Part shown: positions 2,687 through 5,180 of the stretch, in pieces
Layout of the letters: every line of letters starts with the position of its first letter
How positions within the stretch are numbered: the stretch's first letter is position 1
Source: an uncultured Christensenellaceae bacterium
GTDB taxonomy: Bacteria > Bacillota > Clostridia > Christensenellales > UMGS416
Length of the DNA: 64,000 bases
Assembly (NCBI GenBank): GCA_944376795.1
Contig: CALWDW010000039.1
Coordinates: 135,917 to 199,916 of the forward strand
Direction of reading: 5' to 3'
Notes under the pieces: generated by a model
Told to the model about the DNA's origin: nothing
The model's input: the letters and a program-made list of their open reading frames with translations, nothing else
Database searches by the model: none
Made by a program: the position numbers and the translations under genes

Positions 2687-2859
2687 GGATCCTCCTATGG
2701 GGCGCTGCAGCAGGGCCGCCCCGGCGGGCCCATCCAGGGCTGCCACCAATAGCAAGAACAGTATAGGCAGGGTAGGGGAGGTTGTCAAGTAAAAACCGGC
2801 GATTTTGCCGGTCCCAAAGGCGCCGTTTTCTTGGCTGCGTCATAGGGTAGATTGAGGTG

Positions 2860-3543
2860 ATGCGCTTGAATAAGCAAACGGTGCTTCAAGCCATGGAGAT
2901 TGCTGGTCTGGCCTACGCTCAGACACAGCCCATGGTCTTTGGAAGATTGGAGGCAGAGATTGACGATCCGGCTACGGGGATCCAGTGCTTTGTCCGGCGG
3001 CGGGGGGAGATCCTGTCCATTGCCTTTCGCGGATCCGACGCGCCAAAGGACTGGAGGACCAACCTGGCCTTTTGCAAGAAGGTCATCCCCTACAACAATT
3101 CTGCGTCCAAAATTAAGGTGCATGCCGGCTTTATCCGTGCCTATAAGGAGCCCCAGATACGGGAGCGGCTGCAGGCACTGGTCACACCCGGAATTCGAAG
3201 GGTGGAGCTCTGCGGCCACTCCTATGGAGCGGCGCTGGCGGTTCTGTGCGCTGTGGACCTGCAATATAACTTTCCAGACCGGGATTTTGAGGTGATGCTC
3301 TTTGGCTGTCCCCGGGTGGGTAACCGGGCCTTCCAGCGCTCCTACAACCGGCGGGTATTCAAGACCCTGCGGGTGGAGAACGGTAATGACATTGTGTCCA
3401 AACTTCCGCCCGCGCTGTGGGGATACCGGCACGTAGGGATCCGCATCCATGTGGGGGCGGTGCGTCTGCCGGGCGTGATCTCCGTCCGGCAGCACCATCC
3501 CCAGGCGTACTACGCTTCAGCGTTTACCTGTCTGCCGGGGTAG
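2860..3543 (+). CDS. Class 3 lipase-like alpha/beta hydrolase, cytosolic
   Basis: A 227-residue hydrolase of the fungal-lipase-like (class 3) family. It shows AFRGSD (55-60), the nucleophile elbow GHSYG with Ser121, PRVGN (151-155), the probable acid Asp177 in ENGNDIVSKLPP, and His212/213 near the C-terminus as the likely triad His. There is no signal peptide, so it probably acts inside the cell on lipid or ester substrates. Start choice is uncertain: ATG 2860 (or GTG 2857) sits too close to GAGG at 2854-2857, whereas TTG 2866 has ideal spacing. It stands alone, divergent from the kinase operon and convergent with the TetR gene. Confidence 0.85.
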   Translation: MRLNKQTVLQAMEIAGLAYAQTQPMVFGRLEAEIDDPATGIQCFVRRRGEILSIAFRGSDAPKDWRTNLAFCKKVIPYNNSASKIKVHAGFIRAYKEPQIRERLQALVTPGIRRVELCGHSYGAALAVLCAVDLQYNFPDRDFEVMLFGCPRVGNRAFQRSYNRRVFKTLRVENGNDIVSKLPPALWGYRHVGIRIHVGAVRLPGVISVRQHHPQAYYASAFTCLPG

Positions 3544-3558
3544 GACTGGGGACACTTA

Positions 3559-4083
3559 TTATGTGCGCACTGCCGGCAGGATCTTTTCGTGTATGATCCG
3601 AGCCATTTCTTGGGGTGATTCCTGGTAGTCGCGGCGAATCCATTCATCCAGCATGCCGAAGAGACCGTAGGAGAGGAACCGGTTCCGATAGAGGGCCGCG
3701 GGATCGGTTACCGCCGGCGGGACCATGACCTGGTAAAAGGCGTTATACAGTGCGCTCTGGATGCCGGCGGCATAAATGAGCCCATGCAGCTGCCGCATGT
3801 CCAGGCTGAAGATGAAAAAGGCTTCGGCGGTATCCAGGGTATATTTGCTCTTCTCCGTAAGGTGATGGCTTTGGCTGAACCGATCCCACAGTCGGAGAAT
3901 CTTGTAGGTAATGACATCCTCCTTGGAGGTAAAATTGCGGAAATAGGTGACGCGGCCCACTTCGGCCAGGCAGGTGATCTCCTGGATGGTGATTTTCCCC
4001 CAAGGTTTGGCTTCCATAAGATGGATCAGTGCGTCAGCGATGCGCTCCTTTAAGGAATCCGTCGATGTGTTTTTCCTACGCAC
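3559..4083 (-). CDS. TetR-family transcriptional regulator
   Basis: A 174-residue one-component repressor. The N-terminal helix-turn-helix spans about residues 28-55 (ITIQEITCLAEVGRVTYFRN), followed by the KEDV region that ends TetR DNA-binding domains; the rest is a helical ligand domain with no obvious family mark. It starts at GTG 4083 with GGGAAGG upstream. It is divergent from degV, and the 227-base intergenic region carries one promoter for each gene and a palindrome between them, so autoregulation and control of degV are likely (inference). Its 3' end is 15 bases from the convergent lipase gene. Confidence 0.88.
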   Translation of the reverse strand: MRRKNTSTDSLKERIADALIHLMEAKPWGKITIQEITCLAEVGRVTYFRNFTSKEDVITYKILRLWDRFSQSHHLTEKSKYTLDTAEAFFIFSLDMRQLHGLIYAAGIQSALYNAFYQVMVPPAVTDPAALYRNRFLSYGLFGMLDEWIRRDYQESPQEMARIIHEKILPAVRT

Positions 4084-4126: not shown

Positions 4127-4155
4127 TTGACTTTCTGCTGTGAAGCCGATATACT
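4127..4155 (+). promoter_or_regulatory. Promoter of degV
   Basis: TTGACT (4127-4132), 17-base spacer, TATACT (4150-4155). The predicted start of transcription falls at about 4162, on the palindrome at 4162-4175, leaving a leader of about 150 bases before ATG 4311. Confidence 0.7.
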
Positions 4156-4161
4156 GGAAAA

Positions 4162-4175
4162 GATACTTTCGTATC
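4162..4175. promoter_or_regulatory. Palindrome between divergent tetR and degV promoters
   Basis: GATAC-TTTC-GTATC, a perfect 5+5 inverted repeat. It lies at the predicted +1 of the degV promoter and just downstream of the predicted start of the tetR transcript, where a TetR dimer would block both. The operator role is inference. Confidence 0.5.
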
Positions 4176-4190
4176 ATTAGTGACATGCCC

Positions 4191-4219
4191 ATCATACTAC
4201 GGGGCGGCACGCTTGTCAA
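4191..4219 (-). promoter_or_regulatory. Promoter of the tetR gene
   Basis: On the minus strand, TTGACA (4219-4214), 17-base spacer, TATGAT (4196-4191): near-consensus. It runs toward the TetR gene at 4083. Confidence 0.72.
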
Positions 4220-4310: not shown

Positions 4311-5180
4311 ATGCGTAAGAAGATAGCCATTGTGACGGACAGCAATAGCGGCATTACCCAGGAAATTGCCCGGGACATGGGGGTTTATGTGCTGCCCATG
4401 CCCTTTTATATCGGGGAGGGGAGCTATTATGAGGGGATCACTCTCTCCCAAGAGGAGTTCTATGAGAAGCTGAAGGGAGACGTGGAGATCTCCACCTCGC
4501 AGCCGGCGGTGGGGGATATTTTGGACCTTTGGAATAAGCTCTTGGAAGACTATGAAGCCTTGGTGCACATTCCCATGTCCAGCGGACTGTCTGGAACCTG
4601 CGCGACGGCCATGGCGCTGGCTGCGGATTACGATGGGCGCGTCGTAGTGGTGAACAACCAGCGGATCTCCGTGACCCAGCGGCAGTCGGTGCTGGATGCC
4701 ATCCAGCTGGCGCAGGCAGGGCGTTCGGCCGAGGAGATTCGGCAGATTCTGGAGGAGACCAAGTTTGACTCCAGCATCTATATTATGCTGGATACCCTGC
4801 GCTATCTGAAAAAGGGCGGACGGATTACGCCGGCGGCAGCGGCCATCGCCACCGTGCTGCGCATCAAGCCGGTGCTGCAGATCCAGGGCGAGAAGCTGGA
4901 TGCCTTTGCCAAGGCACGGAGTGAAAGACAGGGGCGGAAAATCATGATCCAGGCCATACAGAAGGACATCGAGACGCGTTTTCATGGCGTGGAGAACGTG
5001 CGTCTCTACGCCGCCCATACCGATAATGAGAAGGCCGCCCAGGCATTCTGCGCCATGATCCGGGAGGAACTGGGGATAACCGTGACCTTCTGTGACCCCC
5101 TTTCTCTCAGCGTGGCGTGTCACATCGGCCCCGGAGCCCTGGCTGTGGGCTGCTGTCAGAAAATTGACCGCTATCTATAG
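4311..5180 (+). CDS. DegV-family fatty-acid-binding protein
   Basis: A 289-residue DegV (EDD) protein. Family members bind long-chain fatty acids and some (FakB) present them to a fatty-acid kinase for phospholipid synthesis. Visible motifs are the opening strand with TDSNSGI (9-15), STSQP (61-65) and SSGLSGT (90-96), which line the lipid pocket; LKKGGRI is in the second half, as is usual. No fakA kinase is in the window. It has its own promoter facing the tetR promoter, so it may be the regulator's target. The start ATG 4311 has only a weak ribosome site (AAAGGAAC, 10 bases upstream). Confidence 0.92.
   Translation: MRKKIAIVTDSNSGITQEIARDMGVYVLPMPFYIGEGSYYEGITLSQEEFYEKLKGDVEISTSQPAVGDILDLWNKLLEDYEALVHIPMSSGLSGTCATAMALAADYDGRVVVVNNQRISVTQRQSVLDAIQLAQAGRSAEEIRQILEETKFDSSIYIMLDTLRYLKKGGRITPAAAAIATVLRIKPVLQIQGEKLDAFAKARSERQGRKIMIQAIQKDIETRFHGVENVRLYAAHTDNEKAAQAFCAMIREELGITVTFCDPLSLSVACHIGPGALAVGCCQKIDRYL

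Follow-up and report, generated by a model that had tools for sequence, protein, structure and literature searches.

Two genes, one for a TetR-family regulator (tetR) and one for a DegV-type protein (degV), are read away from each other across a 227-bp intergenic gap in a 64,000-nucleotide (nt) stretch of DNA (the window) from an uncultured Christensenellaceae bacterium. We asked whether this gap is a control region shared by both genes, what would act on it, and what signal it would answer to. The locus has the following features (window positions):

2857 to 3543, forward strand: class-3 lipase gene, convergent with tetR, given for context (Pfam Lipase_3, 1e-25)
3559 to 4083, reverse strand: tetR, TetR-family regulator of 174 amino acids with a GTG start (open reading frame call; Pfam TetR_C_8, 2.6e-8)
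4127 to 4155, forward strand: degV-ward promoter TTGACT-17-TATACT (TTGACT at 4127-4132, TATACT at 4150-4155; 10/12 match to consensus)
4162 to 4175, no strand: central palindrome GATAC-TTTC-GTATC, that is, GATACTTTCGTATC, the proposed TetR operator (from its sequence and from the same element in relatives)
4191 to 4219, reverse strand: tetR-ward promoter TTGACA-17-TATGAT (TTGACA at 4219-4214, TATGAT at 4196-4191; 11/12 match to consensus)
4311 to 5180, forward strand: degV, DegV/FakB-type fatty-acid-binding protein of 289 amino acids (Pfam DegV, 5.8e-64; TIGR00762, 3.6e-69)

The tetR product belongs to the Pfam C-terminal domain family TetR_C_8 (34.3 bits; cut-off, 26.1). The Pfam scan gave no TetR_N match at an E value of ≤0.001, and no NCBIfam equivalog cut-off was reached. 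A model made from nine sequences (mean pLDDT, 86.9) predicted an all-helical protein with helices within residues 8 to 173, and the HTH stretch aligned with TetR structures, so that predicted structure and alignment together give the HTH fold and all-helical build of the family. HTH residues V42, G43, R49, and F51 are invariant across nine aligned relatives. The top PDB match of the model was 4mk6, a DhaS-like regulator (E value, 1.6e-4; TM, 0.69), which was also the best sequence match among solved structures; B. subtilis FadR came third among the structural matches, with a weaker TM of 0.45. An RBS-like AGGGAAGG lies, by eye, 5′ of the GTG start. The degV product is a DegV family member (216.5 bits; Pfam cut-off, 27) and matched 24 PDB sequences, FakB1 among them; against the FakB1 equivalog model NF038249 it scored 149 bits, below the cut-off of 350. 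The genome encodes 5 DegV proteins and 1 FakA (FakA-like_C match, 1.5e-85), so that a FakA partner is present.

The sequence-only reading had described near-consensus promoters facing each other in this gap, and a scan with a sigma-70-type consensus (threshold, 9/12) bore this out. Over 3 kb, 3 promoter-like sites were found versus 1.4 ± 1.0 in shuffles; the two gap promoters were the best two, and the gap held no further promoter-like site at that threshold. The −10 boxes face each other at a distance of 35 bp, and when the 250 bp before tetR were dinucleotide-shuffled 200 times, no equally good facing pair arose. Between the −10 boxes lies GATACTTTCGTATC, 6 nt from that of degV and 15 nt from that of tetR. 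If transcription starts about 7 nt past each −10 box, as predicted (near 4162 for degV and near 4184 for tetR), the palindrome would span about +1 to +14 of degV and +10 to +23 of tetR; its earlier placement at the start of both transcripts was thus about right.

Taken by itself the palindrome says little, because a bare inverted repeat with 5-bp arms is commonplace: 67% of 500 shuffled gaps hold one as long. The 2.68-Mb genome contains GATACN4GTATC at 5 positions; apart from the window site, three are within long open frames and one, judged by eye, is inside a larger hairpin. A genome-wide search for the core GRTACGAWAGTAYC with up to one mismatch returned the window site and one other, the latter in an open frame. 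Within the 64-kb window, the palindrome pattern at N4 spacing had 6 matches with up to one mismatch (shuffle mean, 2.3; as many in 4 of 100 shuffles) and that at N14 spacing had 8 (mean, 2.7; as many in 1 of 100), a slight excess over shuffles.

We searched for the TetR protein, and for the gene pair, in other genomes. Seven other genomes of the family (68 to 95% complete) contained no match to TetR and no close match to DegV (E value of ≤1e-55), which suggests that the pair was transferred or is patchily inherited. At the level of the order, 50 of 396 genomes (the bacterium's own included) matched TetR at an E value of ≤1e-8; seven of the foreign loci encode proteins 38 to 49% identical over most of its length, one is a fragment, and the rest are more distant. 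Further matches came from 13 of 201 genomes of one family (with a relative as the query), 15 of 250 genomes of another family, 1 of 12 of a third, and 6 of 391 in the class, two of them already known. Among 22 named loci, only L036 exceeded 35% identity along most of TetR. The nearest ortholog, at L130, is 54% identical and has His where nine aligned proteins have R44. Starting instead from DegV, we found no TetR gene beside the foreign DegV at any of the 29 loci examined (of 58 foreign matches), with about 1.5 kb inspected per side; close DegV relatives at L079, L081, and L082 occur as adjacent DegV gene pairs. The same orthologous tetR/degV pair was present at none of the loci compared, and conservation was therefore assessed upstream of related tetR genes that have other partners.

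Nineteen regions upstream of related tetR genes were compared (the window, L103 from another order, L088 to L094, L008, L096, L097, L012, L099, L100, L036, and L104 to L106). As controls we took 28 loci with distant TetR genes (L014 to L035 and L037 to L042), of which 27 were scored, since L032 has too little upstream DNA. Loci L043 to L057, mostly HTH-only actinobacterial matches, were kept outside the counts and the incomplete L095 and L098 outside the 19; duplicate loci were counted once (L007 is L091, L009 is L089, L010 is L093, L011 is L088, and L013 is L100).

The N4 site, GRTAC-N4-GTAYC with up to one mismatch, was found in 14 of the 19 related regions, the window included, versus 3 of the 27 distant ones, counts that are neither independent nor uniform because seven regions (L088 to L094) are close relatives and L104 to L106 are distant. 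The remaining five (L092, L093, L012, L100, and L104) have it at two mismatches. A reversed control pattern at the same spacing was found in 0 of 19 related and 3 of 27 distant regions. Facing promoters with a score of 19 or more out of 24 were present in 14 of 19 regions versus 5 of 27, and a facing pair with the N4 site in between in 10 of 19 versus 0 of 27. Judged by shuffles, facing pairs reached a P value of ≤0.04 in 16 of the 19 regions; L036 did not (P value, 0.275), and L093 and L106 lack any pair. Perfect copies of GGTACTATCGTACC, on either strand, occur in L130, L103, and L096. In an alignment of 14 sites, those of 13 hand-chosen relatives and that of the window (L012, L100, L036, and L104 to L106 being excluded), most positions in the relatives, also those of the spacer, follow GRTACTATCGTACC, from which the window differs at 2 of 14. 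A consensus of L103, L096, and L088, chosen because their full match to the arms was known beforehand, found the window site as its sole match in 64 kb at up to two mismatches and matched 4 of 5,000 shuffled gaps.

Seventeen further loci (one of which, L138, is the same locus as control L016) gave the N4 site with up to one mismatch in 9, 6 of which have the core ACAAGTGT, a related but different site. Of the three close loci, L130 has a perfect N4 site but, with a scan score of 16 of 24, lacks a good facing pair; L131, with just 153 bp of upstream DNA, has the site at three mismatches; and L132 has it at two mismatches with a facing pair scoring 21. More distant TetR genes (L136, L137, L140, L144, L145, and L146) carry another palindrome core before the start, roughly GAAACAAGTGTATC. 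The suggestion that the palindrome would recur before tetR/degV in related genomes could be followed only for the site, which precedes most related tetR genes, since the same pair was found at none of the loci compared. The conserved site, often amid facing promoters, supports the earlier proposal of a putative TetR operator common to tetR and degV.

Many of these regions contain a second, wider repeat. GRTAC-N14-GTAYC, with up to one mismatch, was found in 15 of 19 related regions, where it starts 35 to 50 nt before tetR, versus 1 of 27 controls. With L130 and L131 added, the start ranges from 34 to 50 nt before tetR. Carriers include L088 to L094, L103, L130, L131, L012, L096, and L097, and the repeat is perfect in L130 and L131. 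The window has no such repeat before tetR, the best match having three mismatches. N14 (15 regions) and N4 (14 regions) were the commonest spacings among the 19; N18 reached 10 because several regions carry many half-sites. The wider spacing equals N4 plus ten bases, one helical turn, and either one dimer or two may be bound.

Because related tetR genes share the site and facing promoters surround it, the operator reading is convincing: GATACTTTCGTATC is very probably the TetR protein's own operator, in a position from which tetR and degV could be silenced jointly. We consider it probable that the gap is a shared control region in which TetR, bound to this predicted operator, represses both facing promoters and is released by an acyl- or ester-type ligand. 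In this scheme, a TetR dimer would bind GATACTTTCGTATC at 4162 to 4175, just downstream of both −10 boxes, and block both promoters, so that degV and tetR would be repressed. TetR would be released by a ligand, which is most likely a fatty acid or some other acyl- or ester-derived molecule, and DegV, as a FakB-type protein, would then capture fatty acid for FakA. RNA polymerase probably could not occupy both promoters at once, since the facing −10 boxes are separated by 35 bp, and its use of one promoter at a time would add mutual exclusion. Among the points against the switch are the missing N14 repeat, the two departures from the relatives' consensus, and the length of the gap.

That length bears on whether degV is under TetR control at all. 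According to PMC3511530, TetR regulators usually repress a divergent gene that is less than 200 bp away, and three of four with gaps of more than 200 bp left the divergent gene alone. TetR might then use the palindrome to control only itself, degV being driven from a nearer promoter and its adjacency incidental; the lack of the same orthologous pair at any locus compared fits this, as does the leader of about 149 nt that degV would otherwise have. We think this unlikely: the degV-ward promoter is a good one and lies 6 nt from the site, a distance also found at L088 and L089, there past the −10 box of the tetR-ward promoter, and the scan leaves no other candidate promoter in the gap. TetR control of degV is likely.

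Its sign was considered separately. TetR could activate degV, as DhaS and Streptococcus pneumoniae FasR are described to do for their targets in PMC12647141, where loss of FasR lowers fakB3 mRNA and 4MK6 heads the Foldseek matches listed for FasR, just as it is the best structural match of the window TetR. Since FasR is described as a positive regulator, repression in the window should be assumed with caution. Activation nevertheless seems improbable here, with both promoters already near consensus and each −10 box followed by the site, so that a dimer bound there should get in the way of polymerase.

We consider it very improbable that the palindrome serves not as a DNA operator but as an RNA hairpin in either leader or both. 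Folding energies of the 14-mer are −2.8 and −3.7 kcal/mol, and the best fold of a 69-nt leader piece on the degV side uses the stem, but the minimum-energy fold of a 70-nt tetR leader piece does without it, and several relatives have a left arm that breaks a stem pair (GGAAC...GTACC) while the right half-site is kept; the hairpin was rejected as the main reading for its weak stem. Equally remote is a chance repeat, common as such repeats are in shuffled gaps and repeated as this one is in the genome, given its match to the relatives' consensus and its place between facing promoters.

For the preferred reading, repression of both genes from GATACTTTCGTATC, the genes opposite related tetR genes bear on the ligand. 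They vary: BD-FAE/Abhydrolase_3 esterases, pectinacetylesterase-like and PETase-like hydrolases, HAD phosphatases, and ABC transporters were found, as were an MFS transporter (L105) and a DUF308 protein (L036). A DegV gene was present at 4 of 21 loci examined (L147, L119, which is the L012 locus, L115, and, about 3.7 kb off, L124). At L147 (609-4760), consecutive genes for an acyl-ACP thioesterase, a DegV, and a pectinacetylesterase-like protein form a cluster that is read away from the gene of the nearest TetR relative; at L012, a HAD phosphatase and a DegV lie beside the TetR relative. A gene between tetR and the thioesterase at L147 had been guessed by eye to be GNAT-like, and the guess was dropped when two pieces scanned gave no Pfam match. 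The DegV proteins of L147, L012, and L115 are 23 to 28% identical to that of the window, which suggests that DegV may have joined the TetR clade more than once.

TetR-DegV pairs appear to arise repeatedly, since L115 (4866-6451) holds, beside the TetR ortholog, a second, distant TetR (23% identical) divergent from its own DegV. At L142 (443-2028) and L026 (446-2070), DegV genes whose products are about 47% identical to that of the window are paired divergently with another TetR gene (product about 26% identical), and the DNA upstream of these TetR genes contains no GRTAC-N4-GTAYC within two mismatches.

Because DegV, acyl-ACP thioesterase, and alpha/beta hydrolases recur and a lipase gene adjoins tetR, an acyl or ester-derived signal is favored. 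According to PMC12288450, the Fak system of Enterococcus faecalis takes up fatty acids that have been released by a thioesterase. The sequence-only reading had named an acyl-CoA or fatty acid as the possible ligand; the lipase, thioesterase, esterase, and DegV neighbors speak for it, whereas the ABC, MFS, and DUF308 partners of some relatives do not point to fatty acids, and the best structural match is DhaS-like rather than FadR. A fatty acid is a plausible ligand at about even odds.

A broader generalization is possible, though we hold it only tentatively. The TetR clade may be an undescribed acyl- or ester-responsive class with a portable face-to-face switch, in which a central GRTAC-N4-GTAYC is retained and the controlled gene (DegV, thioesterase, esterases, HAD phosphatase, or ABC transporters) is swapped; most members would add an N14 operator, bound by one dimer or two. 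The locus itself is, as a local control switch, sound but rather ordinary. In the literature consulted on TetR, DegV/FakB, and facing promoters, we found no description of this operator, although one may be published.

Among known systems, the arrangement resembles bioA/bioBFCD and argE/argCBH of E. coli, where facing promoters with overlapping leaders share one operator that serves both directions; the repressors there are BirA and ArgR, not TetR proteins. DhaS-like regulators (4mk6; TIGR02366) are the best match of the window TetR in structure and sequence, yet it falls far below the equivalog cut-off (21.3 bits; cut-off, 129), and no dihydroxyacetone kinase gene is among the five neighboring genes scanned. 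The layout had been called textbook for a TetR repressor, a label that is less secure. As in the tetR/tetA type described in PMC3511530, the regulator is divergent from its presumed target and a palindrome lies in the shared gap; tetR/tetA has two 15-bp operators, however, whereas here facing promoters surround one central site in a gap of 227 bp.

The pneumococcal FasR/fakB3 locus is a close published precedent. Immediately upstream of the gene for FasR (SPV_0647), a TetR protein, lies fakB3 on the opposite strand, and FasR affects fabM and fakB3 mRNA; the words operator and palindrom- are absent from the main text of PMC12647141. The likeness, which is one of layout and predicted fold, consists of a TetR gene divergent from a DegV/FakB gene, 4MK6 as the nearest fold, and a fatty-acid setting; FasR differs from the proposed window TetR in being reported as a positive regulator and not a repressor. 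With the locus described here, an uncharacterized TetR clade gains a predicted operator, probable targets, and a class of ligand that can be tested, and acyl-compound sensing by such cells becomes a directly testable question. The window would thus provide, besides FasR/fakB3, a second setting that ties a TetR regulator to FakB-type fatty-acid capture.
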